Part shown: piece after piece, positions 3,702-41,283 of the stretch
Layout of the letters: each line of letters begins with the position of its first letter
Numbering within the stretch: position 1 is the stretch's first letter
From: Candidatus Kuenenia stuttgartensis
GTDB taxonomy: Bacteria; Planctomycetota; GCA-002687715; CAIWVZ01
NCBI GenBank assembly: GCA_945860915.1
Contig: CAMARR010000002.1
Span: forward strand, 1-64,000
Direction: 5' to 3'
Length of the DNA: 64,000 bases
Notes under the pieces: generated by a model
Told to the model about the DNA's origin: nothing
The model's input: the letters and a program-made list of their open reading frames with translations, nothing else
Database searches by the model: none
Translations under genes and position numbers: made by a program

Positions 3702-6104
3702 TCAGTCAGAGGGCCTGGATGCCGGCTTTGCGGGCAGAATCTGGACAACTCGGTCGCCGTCGATTGCGATGATGTTGCTCCCGAGCGCGAGGACTGCTCC
3801 CCACCCTGGACGCTTCGCGAGTTCGAACCACGCGGGCGACCATTGCTCAATAGCCACAAGTTTTCGGTCGAGATCTTCGGCCGGCAGATTGAGCGCTGCG
3901 CCTTCGATGAAGATTCCCGAACGTTCCCAGAAGACTCGCGACGCTACGTTGCGAATGGTCGCCTGGAGCTGCCCGCGGCGAGCCACATCGGATTCGCGAA
4001 GGTCCTTGAGCCTCAGCGAGAGGTTGATGTCTCCCGATTCGTAGAGCTTGCGGAATTCATCGCCGGCAGCATTCGCCTTGCTTTTCGCTTCTTCGAAAAG
4101 CTGCTCGCCCTCTTGATCAGGCAACTTCTTGCCTTCAGCGGAGCGCAAGCGGTCTCGAAGTCCGGACTCCAGTCCGCCTGTTGCATCGCGAGGCGCCGCA
4201 GCACTTGGGGCCGGCGCGCCGAGTGTCCCGGGTGCGCCTGCCGCATCACGCCTCACCCCACCGACGTCGAGACCACGTCCGCCCGTCTCACCTCGTGTCG
4301 CACCCCCGCCTCCCCCTGGTTGTCCACCACGCCAATGGCCAGGGTTCTGAGGTGGCTGCACACCCGCAGTCGGAATGTCCTCCGTAATGAGGAACGAAGT
4401 GTAGGGCGTCACAATTCCATGCCGGACCCCGAGCGAGACAATCTCATCACGGAGTTCCTTCGATTCACCGTTAAGGCGAATCAGGTCCATGAGCCAACCG
4501 ACTTTTCGGGTGGCCCAAAGACGCGCGACCGACGGTTGAACCGATGCAGAATCCACGGCGAATGTCCAGCTCGTCGCAAATGGCGTGGTGTTCACACGGC
4601 CTTCGAGATTCACTTTGACTGTTCCCTTGCCCTTCCACGATCCGGCGAGCGTCAGCTGCGTGCCTCGGAATAAGTCAGGAACATCCCTCGGGAAAACGTC
4701 CTTCACTTCAAGTCCTTCGAAGGTCACCTTGATGTCACTCAGTACGGGACGAGAGACTTTGGCGAAGAACGTCGAGACCTTGAGTTCAAGATCCTCGGAT
4801 TCCGCAACGTAGTCGCGCGTGCCGCGATTCTGCTCTGCCATGCGATCAAGGAGAGTCGCATTGACGTCTCCACCGATGCCGAACACCGAGAGCCTTACGC
4901 GCTTGGGGCACTTCCCTGCAATGTCCTTGACCAGGGACTCGGGATCGGTCAGCCCCACGGTGGGGCGACCGTCAGTCAGGAAGAGAAGTTGGAGCGGACG
5001 ATCGCCATCTCCGGAAATCTTCAGTGCTGCCACGAGAGCGTCGTGAATTGCTGTTCCACCAACTGGCTTTAAATCCCCGACGAACGACACCGCGCGCTTG
5101 ACGGATTCGCTCGAGACATCGGTCAGTTTGCCATTCAATGGCCGAGCCTCGGTCGAGAACGAAATCAGCTCAAATCGATCTCCAGCTTCAAGAGATTGCA
5201 GACATTGAATCAGAGTCTTGCGGAGCTGCTCCATCTTGACTCCGGCCATCGAGCCCGACGTATCCGCGACAAAGATGATGTCTTGGGCTGGTCGCATCGC
5301 AGCTGCGGGTTGCACGGCCGGCGCGAGCATCAGGAGGAAATTTCCGTGGTCGCCATCGCTGTGAGAAACGAAGGAAGCACCAACGTCTCCTTCGCCTTGG
5401 CCAATGTAGAGAACGAAGTCTGTGTCGGCCTTAGTCCCACGTTCTTCGAGCACAACTTTTGCGCTGCGATCGCCGCTACGAGTCACGGTGACTTGGTGGG
5501 TCGGCGAGTGAATCACCTTCAGTGCGCCTTTGCTCGCAATCTCGGCGACAATGGTCGTCTGACCTGTCGTTGGTGCTCCTCCGGCCTGAGTCTTCAGCGG
5601 GTAGCGCCATTCGAGCATTCCTGCGGTGGCGCTCAGCGTCTCTGAGTAGGTCAACTCGATGTCCATGGTCCCCGTGGCTGGAATGGGAAACACGCGAGCA
5701 CGAAAAAGTCGACGCCCCATGTACTCAAGGAGTCCCGGGTCTCGAGCCCGTGCAACGATCGCCTCGTAGATGCCGGCGGCCTTATCACGGTCGAGCAATT
5801 CGCCCGAGACCATCTTCCCGCCCATCGACATGGCAAAGCCCGAGATTGCGGCTTGGTCGGGGAGCGCAAACAAGTACGTCCCCTCAAGTTCAACTGCGTT
5901 GGGGTTGCGAAATGTCTGACGGACGGTTGTGGTCACCACGCCTTCTTCGACTTTCGCAGTAACGGCGTGACGCTCCGTGCTGAGCGGTGCGAGCGACCGG
6001 TGGCGAGCGGGGTTAACCACCACCTGACGGATGCTGAGTTCCGTTACGAACTGTGCCGAGACCAACGTAGACACGAACGCAAGAGCCAGTAGGAACCGCG
6101 ACAT
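3702..6104 (-). CDS. Exported VIT-domain/von Willebrand factor A protein
   Basis: An 800-residue secreted protein. A signal peptide (residues 1-17, LVSAQ end) is followed by a VIT (vault/inter-alpha-trypsin) domain at about 25-155, seen in VTTTVRQTFRNPNAVELEG and in YEAIVARARDPGLLEY. A vWA domain lies at about 275-450. Its metal-binding MIDAS motif DTSGSM starts at D281, with the later T in GGTAIHDAL and the D in FLTDGRP also present. The tail is Gly/Pro/Ala-rich and probably disordered, then charged and helical. VIT-vWA proteins bind partners or metal-dependent ligands outside the cytoplasm; the ligand here is unknown. The start was chosen at 6104 because GGAGGT sits at the normal distance, although that SD lies in a stem (6113-6136). 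It belongs to the sigma-factor operon. Confidence 0.93.
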   Translation of the reverse strand: MSRFLLALAFVSTLVSAQFVTELSIRQVVVNPARHRSLAPLSTERHAVTAKVEEGVVTTTVRQTFRNPNAVELEGTYLFALPDQAAISGFAMSMGGKMVSGELLDRDKAAGIYEAIVARARDPGLLEYMGRRLFRARVFPIPATGTMDIELTYSETLSATAGMLEWRYPLKTQAGGAPTTGQTTIVAEIASKGALKVIHSPTHQVTVTRSGDRSAKVVLEERGTKADTDFVLYIGQGEGDVGASFVSHSDGDHGNFLLMLAPAVQPAAAMRPAQDIIFVADTSGSMAGVKMEQLRKTLIQCLQSLEAGDRFELISFSTEARPLNGKLTDVSSESVKRAVSFVGDLKPVGGTAIHDALVAALKISGDGDRPLQLLFLTDGRPTVGLTDPESLVKDIAGKCPKRVRLSVFGIGGDVNATLLDRMAEQNRGTRDYVAESEDLELKVSTFFAKVSRPVLSDIKVTFEGLEVKDVFPRDVPDLFRGTQLTLAGSWKGKGTVKVNLEGRVNTTPFATSWTFAVDSASVQPSVARLWATRKVGWLMDLIRLNGESKELRDEIVSLGVRHGIVTPYTSFLITEDIPTAGVQPPQNPGHWRGGQPGGGGGATRGETGGRGLDVGGVRRDAAGAPGTLGAPAPSAAAPRDATGGLESGLRDRLRSAEGKKLPDQEGEQLFEEAKSKANAAGDEFRKLYESGDINLSLRLKDLRESDVARRGQLQATIRNVASRVFWERSGIFIEGAALNLPAEDLDRKLVAIEQWSPAWFELAKRPGWGAVLALGSNIIAIDGDRVVQILPAKPASRPSD

Positions 6105-7614: not shown

Positions 7615-8262
7615 TCATCCCCTTAACGCAGCCTCAAGCGACGTATCGCCGAGGTAGTCCCTGAACGTTTCGAAAAAGCGATCACGCGCACGCGAAAGCC
7701 GTGATGACACGGTCTTCACTGGGCACCCAATCACTTCCGCTGCTTCCTCATACGACAACCCCTGCAAGGCGCAGAGGACGAATACTTCTCGAAGCTTGGG
7801 TGAAAGGGTGTCCGTCACCGCGGCCACCCGTTCCGCCAACTCACCCGCCAAGACTTTGATCTCTGGGCGCTCGAAGGACGGCACCGGTGGGTCGACCGAC
7901 GTGCCAAAATCATCATCCTCGTCAGCAGGACCAATGGGCACCAGTGCGATGCGCTTGCGCCTCAACCAGTCGATCGACGCGTTCCTTGTGACCGCGTAGA
8001 CCCACGTAAGAAATCGCCCCCGCGGATCGAACGACTTCGGCTGCCTATAGACTTTAAGAAAGACCTCCTGAAGGAGGTCGTCTGCAGCGTCGCGATCCCC
8101 AACAAATCGAGCGATGAAAAGCCTTAACCGTGCCGCATGGCGCTCATAGAGCGCATTGAATGCGGCGAGATCTCCGTCCATAAGACGGATCATGAGGACC
8201 TCATCGGTCTCCGCAGCGTCGGTCAGGGGGATCTCCCGGGGGACGGCTCGAAGGGTGGTCAT
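7615..8262 (-). CDS. ECF-type RNA polymerase sigma factor
   Basis: A sigma-70 family factor of the extracytoplasmic-function group, 215 residues from the ATG at 8262; a GTG at 8286 would add eight residues. Region 2 is clear (ALYERHAARLRLFIARFVGD, DDLLQEVFLKVY, FLTWVYAVTRNASIDWLRRK), and region 4 ends the protein (LREVFVLCALQGLSYEEAAE, then IGCPVKTVSSRLSRAR). There is no region 1.1 or 3. A short acidic linker separates the two domains. It heads the operon with the anti-sigma-like, VIT/vWA and TPR genes, so it probably directs its own operon as most ECF factors do. The 103-bp region divergent from hslO must hold its promoter; I could not define one. Confidence 0.95.
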   Translation of the reverse strand: MTTLRAVPREIPLTDAAETDEVLMIRLMDGDLAAFNALYERHAARLRLFIARFVGDRDAADDLLQEVFLKVYRQPKSFDPRGRFLTWVYAVTRNASIDWLRRKRIALVPIGPADEDDDFGTSVDPPVPSFERPEIKVLAGELAERVAAVTDTLSPKLREVFVLCALQGLSYEEAAEVIGCPVKTVSSRLSRARDRFFETFRDYLGDTSLEAALRG

Positions 8263-8365
8263 GTTCGTCTTGTGGCAAGCCGACACATGGCCTACCTAGG
8301 CCACCATACGGATCGACCCCTAGACTACTCCCCCGCGAGGGTAAGGATGTTAGGTTTCCCCCCGC

Positions 8366-9253
8366 ATGTCCGAGTCCCCTCTCCAAGGAACACCCTCTCC
8401 CGAGGCCCCATTTGGGGTGGATCGGATGATTCAGGCCATAATCGAGCCCGATGATGTCCGAGTCTTGGTTGCCGATGCCTCGGCGACGGCCTTTGAGAGC
8501 GAATATAGGCATCTGGCTGGGCGGCTTTCAGCGCAAGTGACGGCATCCCTCTGCGCCGGTGCTGTGCTCCTGTCCGCCGACTTAAAGCACGACGAGCGCC
8601 TCGCGTTTCAAGCTCGACTGACTGGTCCGCTCGGCGGGTTCCTATATGAGGTCGACCAGGACCTGAATTTCCGAGGCTCGACCCACAAGAAGGTGCTTCC
8701 AGACCACGACACGCGCGGAACGCCAATCAGCGAAGCCCTTGGAAAGGGCAGCCTTCAAGTTCTGCGTTCGACGTCGCAAGGGATCGTCTACCAAGGCATC
8801 ACGACGATGAATGCCGGAAACATCGCTGCCGATTTGGAGCAGCACCTGATGGATTCGCAACAAACTCTGTCGCGAGTTCGCCTTGATCATGGCTACTCCC
8901 ACCAACTGACCCACGCGATGGGGATTCTGATTCAAGCCCTCCCAACTGCATCGGAGGCTGGGTTCGAAAAGATCGCCAATCTGGTCTGTGATCGCGCCGA
9001 TGCCCTCCGACCGTGGCCCCGCAATCCCGCCGCCCTACTTGCGGATGTCACGCGGGGTCTTTCATGCCACACAGTGGGCGACCGAACGATTCAGTTTCGC
9101 TGCCGATGTACCCGCGATCGCGTGATCGCGATGCTGAAGTCGGTCGGTCCGCCTGAAGACGGATCGGGATGGCCCGAAGTGTCGCGCGTCGTATGTGCGT
9201 TCTGCGCGGACATTTTTGAAGTCACGCCGGATGAACTTACGCGCGGCGACTAG
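8366..9253 (+). CDS. hslO: Redox-regulated chaperone Hsp33
   Basis: A 33-kDa chaperonin of 295 residues, the usual family length. Family hallmarks are the GSLQVLRSTSQGIVYQG region, ADLEQHLMDSQQ and the C-terminal zinc switch with C246-x-C248 and C277-x2-C280. In characterised Hsp33 these four cysteines bind zinc when reduced. Oxidation forms disulphides, releases zinc and turns the protein into a holdase for unfolding proteins in the cytoplasm. All four are present, so the protein should be redox-switchable. It is divergent from the ECF sigma operon, and its stop overlaps the stop of the convergent gene by 4 bp. Confidence 0.95.
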   Translation: MSESPLQGTPSPEAPFGVDRMIQAIIEPDDVRVLVADASATAFESEYRHLAGRLSAQVTASLCAGAVLLSADLKHDERLAFQARLTGPLGGFLYEVDQDLNFRGSTHKKVLPDHDTRGTPISEALGKGSLQVLRSTSQGIVYQGITTMNAGNIAADLEQHLMDSQQTLSRVRLDHGYSHQLTHAMGILIQALPTASEAGFEKIANLVCDRADALRPWPRNPAALLADVTRGLSCHTVGDRTIQFRCRCTRDRVIAMLKSVGPPEDGSGWPEVSRVVCAFCADIFEVTPDELTRGD

Positions 9254-37102: not shown

Positions 37103-37729
37103 ATGGACGGTAAAAAGATCGAAGGCAGCGACGCGCTGTCTCGTCGCGGATTCCTCAAGAGTGCGGGCGTCGCTGCTGCGGCAACCACGCTCATCCATGA
37201 GACGCGAAAATCGCTTGAATCAACGATCCCCTCCGACGCGACGGTCATGCGGGGCGAATCCGAGCTGAAGTTCAAGCTGAATGGCAAAGAGGTGACTGCA
37301 AAAGTCGCTCCTTCCCTCACGCTGCTCGAACTTCTGCGCGAGAAGATGGATTTGACTGGAACCAAACAGGTGTGCGATCGCGGCGCCTGCGGCGCGTGCA
37401 CGGTGCACCTCGACGGACGGACGGTGAACTCTTGTCTTTTACTCGCGGTGGACGCCTCGGGCCGCAATGTCACCACCGTCGAAGGTCTCGCTCAGGGCGA
37501 ACAGCTCCACCCAGTGCAGCAAGGGTTCGTGGAGGAAGACGCAATGCAGTGCGGATTTTGCACTCCAGGCATGGTGATGTCTTGCGCAGCCTTGCTGGCG
37601 AAAAATCCGAAGCCGACGCGCGCCGACTGCGCAGAAGGAATCTCGGGCAACATCTGCCGTTGCGGAACCTACCTGAATATCTTCCGAGCCATGGATAGGG
37701 CGTCCGCATTGATGAAGGCGGGTAAGTAA
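37103..37729 (+). CDS. paoA: Aldehyde oxidoreductase [2Fe-2S] subunit, Tat-exported
   Basis: The small iron-sulfur subunit of a xanthine-oxidase family molybdoenzyme, 208 residues, closest in layout to E. coli PaoA (YagT). A twin-arginine signal (SRRGFLKSAGVAAAATT) indicates folded export of the complex to the periplasm. The plant-type 2Fe-2S cluster uses CDRGACGACTVHLDG and the following NSC; the second cluster uses QCGFCTPG and GNICRCGTY. Electrons pass from the molybdenum site through these clusters to the FAD subunit. CGGAG lies six bases before the ATG. paoC follows 1 bp after the stop. Confidence 0.94.
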   Translation: MDGKKIEGSDALSRRGFLKSAGVAAAATTLIHETRKSLESTIPSDATVMRGESELKFKLNGKEVTAKVAPSLTLLELLREKMDLTGTKQVCDRGACGACTVHLDGRTVNSCLLLAVDASGRNVTTVEGLAQGEQLHPVQQGFVEEDAMQCGFCTPGMVMSCAALLAKNPKPTRADCAEGISGNICRCGTYLNIFRAMDRASALMKAGK

Positions 37730-37730
37730 C

Positions 37731-40025
37731 ATGGAAAATCTGAACTCCCCGCTCCCCTCGGATCCACAAGACCCAGCAAACCGTCGCCGAGCTCGCAGTC
37801 AAGATGGCGCGAAAGGCGGAACCCCCTTCAAGTTCGGTCAGGCTGGCGATGTCAAGGAAGTGTCCGTTGTGGTCCCGCCTGATGAACCGCCTCCGTGGCA
37901 ATACGGCGACACCCATGCGGTCGTCGGTCACCGCACTCCACGACTCGATGCCGTCGCCAAGGTGACAGGCCGAGCGAAGTACGCGTACGACATCAACCTC
38001 CCTGGAATGCTCTGGGCCGCATTCGTGCGCTGCCCTCACGCCCGCGCCGTGGTGAAATCCGCTGATTACTCAGCGGCCCTCAAGATTCCTGGCGTTGTGG
38101 CTGCGAAGGAATATGGATCGAAGGAAATCCGCTACGCACTCCAACACTTCGGTGTCGTCGTTGCCGAGACCCATCAGGCCTGCCTTGAAGGTGTTCGCGC
38201 CGTGAAGGCAGAGTTTGAAGTTCTGCCGCATTCGGCGCGATTCGATCAAGCAATCGCTGACCAAGCGCCGCGTGTTCACTCCGAACGCCCGAACATCACG
38301 GGCGACGGATTCCGCCCAGAGAGCGAAGCGGTTGTGGATGCCGCCCTTAAGGAGTGCGACGCCGTCATTTCGGGAACAGCGACGACCGAAGTCCAGACAC
38401 ACATGTGCCTCGAGCCGCACGGTGTCACAGCCCGATTCGAGGCCCCCGATCGGGCCACCATCTGGGCTTCAACACAGGCAACTTTCGGCGTACGTGGCGA
38501 AGCGGCTCGCGTACTCAAGTTGCCTGAAGCCAACGTCACCGTTCTCACCCACTTCATGGGCGGTGGATTCGGCTCCAAGTTCTCGCTCGGCGTTGCAGGA
38601 GCTGCTGCGTGTGCCCTGTCGAAGGAACTCGGCAAGCCCGTCAAGCTGATGATGGAACGGCGTGCCGAACACGTACAGGGCGGCAATCGTCCTTCCTCCG
38701 TCCAAGAAATGACGCTCGGGGTGAAGAAGGATGGCACGCTTGCGGCATACCGGGTCAAGAAATCCGGAACCGGTGGAATCGGCGGCGGTGCCGGCGCCAG
38801 TAATCCGATGATCTACAAGTTCGGCTCGGTTTCAGAAGCGAACTTCGAAGTCGCTACCAACGCCGGTGCTGCGGCAGCCATGCGCGCCCCGCGACACCCC
38901 CAGGGTTCGTTCGCGATGGAGACCATTCTCAATCTTGCAGCAGATGCGATTGGGATGGACCCGCTCGAACTTCGCAAGCGCAATGACAGCAGTCCAATTC
39001 GCTCGCGGCAATATGTCGATGGAGCCAAGCGATTCGGCTGGGACAAACGGCAAAAGAGCGGCTCGGGAAAAGGCGTGGTCAAGAAGGGCATGGGCGTCGC
39101 ATCGGCCATCTGGTACGCGCTCGGTGGCCGAGGTGCCCAAGTACTTTGCCGAATTCGTAAAGACGGATCAGTTGAAATTCGCAACGGCGCGCAGGACATA
39201 GGCGTAGGGACGAAGACGATCCTCGCGATGGTTGCAGCTGAAGAACTCGGCCTTCCGCTCGCCCGCGTCACGCCATTCATCGGCGACACGAACGACCCGA
39301 TTGGACCGGGCTCCGGTGGCTCAACGACGGCACCTACGATCATGCCGGCGGCGCGTACCGCAGCCTTCATGGCAGGACGGTCTCTTCGCGAGCTCGTCGC
39401 CAAGAAGTGGGATTGCGCCGCAGCCGATTTGGCGCTTGCAAGCGGCAAGGTCATCCACCTCAAGGACAGAGGAAAGAGCATGAAGTTCGAGGATGCGTGC
39501 GCCATGATGCCAGGCGACGAAATTACTGAACTCGGAAAGCGAACGGGCAACTACGGAGCCTATGAGAGTCAGACGGGTGGCGTTCACTTCGCGGAAGTGG
39601 AAGTCGATACCGAGGATGGAACGATCGCGGTTACGCGATATCTCGCTATGCAGGACGCGGGCACCATCATCAATCCGATGACCTCCGAATCGCAGGTCAA
39701 CGGCGCCATCGTCCAAGGGCTTTCTTACGCGCTGTTCGAAGAGCGAATCATCGATCGCCAGCTCGGACAGCAGGTCAATTCGGACATGGACAATTACAAG
39801 TTGGCCGGGTCGAAGGACATGCCACATGTCGAGGTCATCCTGACGGATATCGTCAATGGCGCGAACAACGTGGGTGTTGCCGGCCTCGGCGAAGGGCCTG
39901 CGGTTCCCATCGCAGCGGCCATCGCGGGTGCCGTCCAGAATGCGCTCGGCTTCCCTGTGTGGGGCCTTCCAATGACTCCCGATCGGGTCCTTGCTGCGAT
40001 TGCAGCGAAGGAGAAGGGGCGATGA
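37731..40025 (+). CDS. paoC: Aldehyde oxidoreductase molybdopterin-binding subunit
   Basis: The large catalytic subunit (764 residues) holding the molybdenum cofactor, like E. coli PaoC (YagR). Family regions include RCPHARAVVKSADYSAAL, FMGGGFGSKFSLGVAG, AMRAPRHPQGSFAMET, GSGGSTTAP and QVNGAIVQGLSYALFEE. The catalytic glutamate is expected in GVAGLGEGPAVPIAAAI near the C-terminus. It oxidises aldehydes to acids with water as oxygen donor; the physiological aldehyde is not determined. It has no signal of its own and should be carried by the Tat signal of the small subunit. The start lies 1 bp after paoA, and the 3' end overlaps paoB by ATGA. Gene order A-C-B differs from E. coli A-B-C. Confidence 0.93.
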   Translation: MENLNSPLPSDPQDPANRRRARSQDGAKGGTPFKFGQAGDVKEVSVVVPPDEPPPWQYGDTHAVVGHRTPRLDAVAKVTGRAKYAYDINLPGMLWAAFVRCPHARAVVKSADYSAALKIPGVVAAKEYGSKEIRYALQHFGVVVAETHQACLEGVRAVKAEFEVLPHSARFDQAIADQAPRVHSERPNITGDGFRPESEAVVDAALKECDAVISGTATTEVQTHMCLEPHGVTARFEAPDRATIWASTQATFGVRGEAARVLKLPEANVTVLTHFMGGGFGSKFSLGVAGAAACALSKELGKPVKLMMERRAEHVQGGNRPSSVQEMTLGVKKDGTLAAYRVKKSGTGGIGGGAGASNPMIYKFGSVSEANFEVATNAGAAAAMRAPRHPQGSFAMETILNLAADAIGMDPLELRKRNDSSPIRSRQYVDGAKRFGWDKRQKSGSGKGVVKKGMGVASAIWYALGGRGAQVLCRIRKDGSVEIRNGAQDIGVGTKTILAMVAAEELGLPLARVTPFIGDTNDPIGPGSGGSTTAPTIMPAARTAAFMAGRSLRELVAKKWDCAAADLALASGKVIHLKDRGKSMKFEDACAMMPGDEITELGKRTGNYGAYESQTGGVHFAEVEVDTEDGTIAVTRYLAMQDAGTIINPMTSESQVNGAIVQGLSYALFEERIIDRQLGQQVNSDMDNYKLAGSKDMPHVEVILTDIVNGANNVGVAGLGEGPAVPIAAAIAGAVQNALGFPVWGLPMTPDRVLAAIAAKEKGR

Positions 40026-41029
40026 AAAACTTCGACTACGTTTTGGCCAAGGACGCGGCGGAAGCCGCGAAGGCCGCGCAAGGCAAGAACACACTCCTCA
40101 AGGGCGCAGGAACCGATCTTCTCGATCGCATGAAAGAGGGTGTCTCGCGACCTGACATTGTCGTGAACCTTCTGACGTGCACGGATCTTCGTGCTCCGAT
40201 TCGTGAGGAGGGAGGACGCATCATCATGGGCGCGGCTACCACGCTCACCGAGATTGCAGAATCTCCCCTCCTTCAAAAGGTCGCGCCGGGGCTCGCTGAA
40301 GCCGCTGGCGAGGCGGCCACGCCCCAACTCCGGAATCGTGGGACGCTTGCAGGGAACATCTGCCAGCGGCCACGATGCTGGTACTTTCGCAATGACACCT
40401 ACGCATGTTCCAAAAAGGGCGGTGAGACGTGCTACTCCATCGAAGGCGAGAACAAGTTTCACGCCATCTTCGAGAACGTCAGCTGTAACATAGTCCATCC
40501 ATCCAACCTCGCGCCCATCCTGCAAGCGTTGGGAGCGACGCTTCACGTTGTGTCGGCAAAAGATGACAAGGTCACCTCGAGCGACATCGCATTGAAAGAC
40601 TTCTGGGTGCGCCCTGAAGAGGACATCTCACGAGAGAACATCCTCGGCCCCGGACAAGTGATACGCGAGGTCTCGTTCGCAACGCCCGCAGCAGGGACTG
40701 GGTCGGCCTATGTCGAAACACGCGAGAAGGCCTCCTTCGATTGGGCGCTCACTTCGTGTGCAGCCGTCCTCCGCATCGAAGGTGGGATTATCGTCGACGC
40801 ACATGTCGTGATGTCCTCCGTCGCGCCAACACCTTTGAGCGTCGATGCCGTTGTGGCGATGTTGAAGGGCAAAGCCCCGTCGGAGAGCCTGTTCAAGTCC
40901 GCAGGAGCGAAGGCCACAGACGGAGCAACACCGATGCGAGACAACGGGTACAAGGTCACACTTGTGGCCGTCGCCGTCAAACGCGCCCTCGTGTCTGCGG
41001 CTGCAAGGGCCGTAGGAGGTGCAAAATGA
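40022..41029 (+). CDS. paoB: Aldehyde oxidoreductase FAD subunit with extra Fe-S cysteines
   Basis: A 335-residue FAD-binding subunit of the CO-dehydrogenase medium-chain type (GRIIMGAATTLTEIAESPLL, TPQLRNRGTLAGN). An insert carries four cysteines C114, C119, C129 and C137 (CQRPRCWYFRND and later), the place where E. coli PaoB binds a [4Fe-4S] cluster; C155 is nearby. This marks the PaoABC-like group rather than ordinary xanthine dehydrogenase. The start is fixed by an ATGA overlap with paoC; a longer open frame begins at 39959 inside paoC. Its own stop overlaps the next ATG by ATGA, tying in the small Cys-rich protein. Confidence 0.93.
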   Translation: MKNFDYVLAKDAAEAAKAAQGKNTLLKGAGTDLLDRMKEGVSRPDIVVNLLTCTDLRAPIREEGGRIIMGAATTLTEIAESPLLQKVAPGLAEAAGEAATPQLRNRGTLAGNICQRPRCWYFRNDTYACSKKGGETCYSIEGENKFHAIFENVSCNIVHPSNLAPILQALGATLHVVSAKDDKVTSSDIALKDFWVRPEEDISRENILGPGQVIREVSFATPAAGTGSAYVETREKASFDWALTSCAAVLRIEGGIIVDAHVVMSSVAPTPLSVDAVVAMLKGKAPSESLFKSAGAKATDGATPMRDNGYKVTLVAVAVKRALVSAAARAVGGAK

Positions 41030-41283
41030 GAGGCGATTCTCGTGACTCTGATTCAGTTGTGCCGTCGCGCCGTCTCGGGAGCCATGTCTGTCCAGACTTG
41101 CGCACCAAAACCATGTATCTCAACGAGGAGGCGCGCGGCGACGCAGATGAGACGGGGCAAGGCTGCTCCGCTGCATTCTGGTGCCTTAAGACGATGGATG
41201 CCATCGGCCCCGATGATCGTCCCATCGGCCCCGAGCTTTGCACCCGCGGCCGCGGGTGCTGCGGTCTACCTCCGCAAGCGTGA
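41026..41283 (+). CDS. Small cysteine-rich protein, last gene of the pao operon
   Basis: An 85-residue protein that is easy to overlook. Its ATG overlaps the paoB stop as ATGA and is preceded by AGGAGG, seven bases ahead, the best ribosome site in the operon. Cysteines are at 22, 47, 53, 72, 78 and 79, in the order CPDLRTKTMY, CSAAFWC, and LCTRGRGCCG. There is no signal or membrane segment. The spacing of cysteines suggests a metal or Fe-S site, or a small zinc-binding fold. Coupling to paoB suggests an accessory or maturation role, for example cluster or cofactor delivery; that is inference. No named family was recognised. Confidence 0.72.
   Translation: MRGDSRDSDSVVPSRRLGSHVCPDLRTKTMYLNEEARGDADETGQGCSAAFWCLKTMDAIGPDDRPIGPELCTRGRGCCGLPPQA

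Follow-up and report, generated by a model that had tools for sequence, protein, structure and literature searches.

The window, i.e. the whole stretch of 64,000 nucleotides analysed here, was assigned to the Planctomycetota on the basis of named relatives of the small gene described below and of genomes of the same phylum. Direct reading revealed four closely packed genes on its forward strand (37103-41283), arranged in the order A, C, B and X (Table 1). The junction between paoC and paoB also consists of an ATGA overlap, and a convergent open reading frame (ORF) resembling protein kinases ends 14 nt downstream of X. No Rfam elements were present in the A-C-B-X operon.

Table 1. Genes and translation signals of the A-C-B-X operon in the window.
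Feature	Position	Strand	Basis
paoA-like subunit, two [2Fe-2S], Tat signal SRRGFLKSAG	37103..37729	+	Family matches, motifs
paoC-like molybdenum subunit, GLGE motif	37731..40025	+	Family matches, PDB relatives
paoB-like FAD subunit, [4Fe-4S] loop cysteines RC..AC..TC..SC	40022..41029	+	Pfam, PDB
AGGAGG ribosome-binding site within the paoB 3′ end, 6 nt before the ATG of X	41014..41019	+	Read directly
ATGA start/stop overlap of paoB and X	41026..41029	+	Read directly
X, small four-cysteine protein, 85 aa; invariant C22, K28, C53, G61, C72, R76, C78	41026..41283	+	Homologues, selection

The first three genes resemble those of E. coli PaoABC(D) (PDB 5G5G), in which A contains two [2Fe-2S] clusters and a Tat signal, B contains FAD and a [4Fe-4S] cluster, and C contains molybdenum: in the window, both [2Fe-2S] motifs and the signal are present in A, and a FAD domain with an inserted [4Fe-4S] loop is present in B. 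The GLGE motif of the C subunit contains the catalytic Glu of this family. The product of the gene upstream of X, named paoB in the initial annotation, is indeed a PaoB homologue, matching the Pfam families FAD_binding_5 and CO_deh_flav_C as well as chain B of 5G5G (E=2e-30), and the best PDB matches of both B and C include E. coli PaoABC (5G5G/5G5H). The NCBIfam equivalog cut-offs were missed by A (170 of 322 bits for PaoA) and by C (332 of 1180 for PaoC); judged by these scores, the host enzyme is a group related to, but separate from, the PaoABC equivalogs, and “PaoABC-type” is therefore used here as a structural statement from which no substrate is inferred. The gene order differs as well (A-C-B-X here versus A-B-C-D in E. 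coli), and the XdhC/PaoD gene is encoded elsewhere here, unlike in E. coli, where paoD is the last gene of the operon (PMC3909100). The genes described for E. coli paoABCD do not include X (PMC3909100).

The window is rich in GC and contains 156 ORFs of at least 85 aa starting with ATG, so that the length of X is in itself no proof of a gene. The initial annotation had described an ATGA overlap with paoB, a consensus AGGAGG site and 85 codons with six cysteines, all of which were found on direct reading, the cysteines being located at positions 22, 47, 53, 72, 78 and 79. Homologues of X occur in both other genomes of the genus (79-80% identity within the genus), in eight of nine of the order (39-49% identity) and, at much greater distance, in further genera and families of the phylum, with an intact reading frame, for which the initial annotation had asked, and with the position behind paoB maintained. 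Comparison of the window with genome G002 identified 51 synonymous and 26 non-synonymous changes in X (pS 0.82, pN 0.135), and dN/dS between genomes G001 and G002 was 0.024; in the remaining two frames of the region the ratios were 1.9 and 2.8, a strong synonymous bias being found in the frame of X only. X is a genuine gene subject to strong purifying selection, and the alternative of a fortuitous ORF across the 3′ end of paoB, suggested by the GC content and the many long ORFs of the window, is refuted by the homologues found at the same place throughout the phylum, the dN/dS value and the invariant cysteines.

A profile built from 18 members of the X family was searched against 392 Planctomycetota genomes, resulting in 102 matches in 101 genomes. 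Among 56 distinct members of 68-103 aa, C22, K28, C53, G61, C72, R76 and C78 never vary, and L25, T56, P62 and D63 are nearly constant. Four of the six cysteines of X in the window are therefore invariant (C22, C53, C72 and C78), in the spacing C-x23-36-C-x18-C-x5-7-C, with x18 in 56/56 members. The previously proposed layout CPDLRTK / CxxxxxC (47-53) / CTRGRGCC is present as described, and the expectation that the cysteines would be conserved in relatives with the same operon was borne out for these four, but C47 and C79 are not features of the family. Members in family f26 share an additional cysteine in a GPDxxxC motif. The N-termini of X proteins are hydrophilic, and no signal peptide was recognised by eye.

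No match was obtained for X in Pfam, NCBIfam or PHROG, nor for the 18 aligned members in Pfam, and the X profile returned only antibody-chain and other noise from the PDB sequences. Ferredoxin-type matches were absent from the Pfam and PDB profile searches, no XdhC_C or XdhC_CoxI domain was matched in Pfam by X or by the 18 aligned members, and the known Tat chaperone families (NapD and TorD-DmsD) showed no sequence match to X in Pfam, NCBIfam and PDB, or to the 18 members in Pfam. We know of no Fe-S motif that fits the cysteine spacing of X (x23-36, x18, x5-7). AlphaFold2 models, based on 8 alignment rows each, had a mean pLDDT of 50 for X of the window and of 59 for a compact relative, and gave no confident fold. 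A weak match on contig C8 of the window's own genome (L002), which was missed by the profile, contains a stop and was rejected.

The positions of the X matches were compared with those of the B homologues in the same 392 genomes. In 100 of the 102 matches X is located downstream of a PaoB homologue on the same strand, 99 of them within 170 nt, and a 101st match (G235) proved to lie directly behind B once the DNA was read. The only match without linkage to B is a weak one (G085), rejected as short and frame-broken by a stop. The order A-C-B-X is found in all 38 loci (38/38) with the A gene in view, while one short contig (L089) starts inside C and does not show A, and an ATGA overlap of -4 between paoB and X is present in 10/38 relatives for which the junction was read. 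In one genome (G094, locus L142) approximately 0.8 kb (about 840 nt) of other DNA, comprising a tandem duplication and a GxxExxY-like ORF, separates paoB from X. A fusion of B and X was sought and none was found.

Among the 109 testable Tat-type operons, i.e. those with a B gene of this clade and DNA beyond it (three further B genes end at contig edges), X is present in approximately 100. It is absent from nine similar operons (G014, G030, G012, G304 and five of genus g104) spanning five families (f66, f6, f22, f4 and f77), which indicates that this enzyme type can work without X. In the five loci of g104 (L109-L113, family f66) paoB is followed by a different ORF of approximately 95-120 aa, mutually similar among these loci, e.g. 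MKIQFANPAQVTLLGYIFASLLRRGLADAG... A second, more distant A-C-B paralogue (C approximately 27% identical) is encoded in the same genomes and is accompanied by X in no listed case. In the tree of B proteins this paralogue forms one fully supported group, and the distribution of X requires three changes, either two gains and one loss, for instance, or a single gain followed by more losses.

PaoA of every X-containing operon that was read carries a twin-arginine signal, including a few missed by the pattern of our script, which show the RR pair (e.g. SRRDILRG, TRRALFKG), and the signal is absent from PaoA of 11/11 paralogues read. The same signal was found in 6/6 X-lacking operons of the clade, and X thus occurs only with exported enzymes, while some lineages do not require it for export. 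X was absent from the paoABC operons of Rhizobium and Fibrella that were read, and no relatives were found on plasmids or on viral contigs. A peptide-pattern scan of all genomes, for which the first broad X alignment offered no sufficiently conserved stretch, yielded seven confirmed X loci, all in Planctomycetota; as the pattern is narrow and fits a minority of the family, confinement of X to this phylum does not follow from the scan.

X has an obligatory operon partner in the exported molybdenum enzyme, and with near certainty serves this enzyme as a dedicated additional part or helper; a dedicated role alongside the PaoABC-type complex is strongly supported by the linkage of X to the B genes. 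The enzyme type is already known, but neither the fourth protein nor the A-C-B-X arrangement seems to have been described, and no description of X was found in the open-access papers searched. The presence of X marks, in one phylum, a version of the xanthine-oxidase-family operon with four genes (A-C-B-X), and a tightly conserved partner of a well-studied enzyme family seems to have been overlooked, perhaps owing to its small size. Given its four cysteine positions and strict co-occurrence, the role of X can be tested directly.

The explanation that we tentatively place first, with somewhat less than even confidence, is that X, with a four-cysteine metal site, forms a dedicated fourth component of a PaoABC-type molybdenum hydroxylase exported via Tat, and is most likely a co-exported subunit. 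In its favour are the position of X behind paoB in the order A-C-B-X, its confinement to Tat-type operons, the four invariant cysteines with their constant x18 spacing, the persistence of X with these cysteines in operons that have lost two of the three Fe-S clusters of the enzyme, and the separate encoding of XdhC. X would be produced together with the FAD subunit by translational coupling and, lacking a signal peptide of its own, would fold around the site formed by the four cysteines (C-x23-36-C-x18-C-x5-7-C), which would most likely bind Zn or an Fe-S cluster. X may then bind the A-B-C complex in the cytoplasm and probably stay bound while the Tat signal of A directs the folded complex to the periplasm, where X could act as a small fourth subunit, either stabilising the enzyme or providing an electron-exit site. 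PaoB and PaoC of E. coli, which lack signals, are exported with PaoA via Tat as an assembled complex (PMC4273604), so that an extra subunit without signal could be exported likewise. Against a fourth component stand the nine operons without X, the Rhizobium and Fibrella operons without it, the low confidence of the AlphaFold2 models, and the lack of any B-X fusion.

The main rival, which we regard as possible though doubtful, is that X works in the cytoplasm as a factor for maturation or Tat quality control, binding either the signal peptide of PaoA or the apo-complex until all cofactors have been inserted and then being released, as the small protein NapD does for NapA. The restriction of X to Tat-exported complexes would be expected of such a factor, and so would its small, hydrophilic nature without a recognisable signal peptide. 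However, some Tat-type operons lack X, XdhC already covers Moco insertion in the same genomes, and NapD, TorD and DmsD are not known to possess four strictly invariant cysteines. A precedent is available in NapD, a small chaperone that serves a Tat-exported molybdoenzyme from the cytoplasm; X resembles NapD in being small, operon-linked and associated with an exported molybdoenzyme as client (PMC4159696), although it differs in its four invariant cysteines and in having no sequence match in Pfam or PDB. The location of X at the end of the operon, like that of paoD in E. coli (PMC3909100), is also in line with a maturation factor.

A stronger form of the preferred explanation, i.e. of X as a fourth component, is that it is an electron-exit subunit, in which a four-cysteine Fe-S cluster passes electrons to a membrane or cytochrome acceptor and replaces clusters lost from the enzyme in families f26 and f69. 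Such losses were found in seven X-containing operons (L064, L073, L076, L078, L079, L081 and L095), which form one well-supported group and lack the [4Fe-4S] loop cysteines of PaoB. In four of them (L076, L078, L079 and L081, families f69 and f26) all four plant-type [2Fe-2S] cysteines of PaoA have been lost as well, with the proximal [2Fe-2S] motif, the FAD motifs and Moco retained; the genomes concerned are of high quality, one of them being a single 7.7-Mb contig. All seven operons maintain X with its four cysteines. The loss is limited to the PaoB [4Fe-4S] cysteines in L064, L073 and L095, and in several operons of family f32 (e.g. L067, L071 and L085) just the fourth cysteine of the B loop is changed to Ser. 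A lineage that has dropped two of the three Fe-S clusters yet kept X represents a natural experiment on electron passage in such enzymes.

The persistence of X where internal clusters are gone, its occurrence with exported enzymes only and the further shared cysteine of the f26 members (GPDxxxC) are consistent with an electron-exit role. We nevertheless consider this role unlikely, since the cluster is a predicted one, and since X is also found alongside enzymes in which none of the three Fe-S clusters has been lost and is missing from some Tat-type operons. In its fullest version, which we judge quite improbable, X would be a new kind of Fe-S subunit of approximately 80 aa that has no signal, passes through Tat by means of PaoA and provides the periplasmic molybdenum hydroxylases of planctomycetes with their electron-exit cluster, replacing in f26 and f69 the lost distal [2Fe-2S] and [4Fe-4S] clusters. 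If true, a textbook electron-transfer chain would have been rewired in these two families.

The four invariant cysteines beside an operon for an Fe-S enzyme could also indicate a cluster donor or scaffold for the [4Fe-4S] cluster of PaoB or the plant-type [2Fe-2S] cluster of PaoA, but this is very improbable, as X remains intact in the seven operons without the PaoB [4Fe-4S] cysteines, including the four that lack the PaoA plant-type cysteines too, and as X does not accompany the cytoplasmic paralogue, which contains the same types of cluster. At most, X could be a donor for the proximal [2Fe-2S] cluster that remains in these operons. Among the three roles proposed in the initial annotation, an additional subunit and a maturation factor are still compatible with the data, and the cluster donor is disfavoured by these cluster-loss operons.

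Replacement of the Moco chaperone XdhC/PaoD by X was likewise disfavoured, because XdhC is separately encoded in the same genomes: it was found in 40/41 genomes tested, and the genome of the window carries it on a different contig. X is similar to XdhC/PaoD as an accessory gene at the operon end of the same enzyme family (PMC3909100), and differs in its size (approximately 70-100 aa), its four cysteines and the absence of a match to XdhC_C (PF13478), XdhC being present in addition. In one genome (G199, contig C175) an XdhC gene (3898-4326) precedes the PaoB gene (7757-8692) by a few kb on the same strand and thus lies just ahead of the operon, in support of XdhC being the Moco chaperone for this enzyme. 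Finally, a role of X as connector of A and C was rejected, as two loci of family f56 (L061 and L072), in which PaoA and PaoC are fused into a single reading frame that begins with the Tat signal, still keep X. A further locus (L140, genome G304) possibly presents a PaoA-PaoC fusion too.
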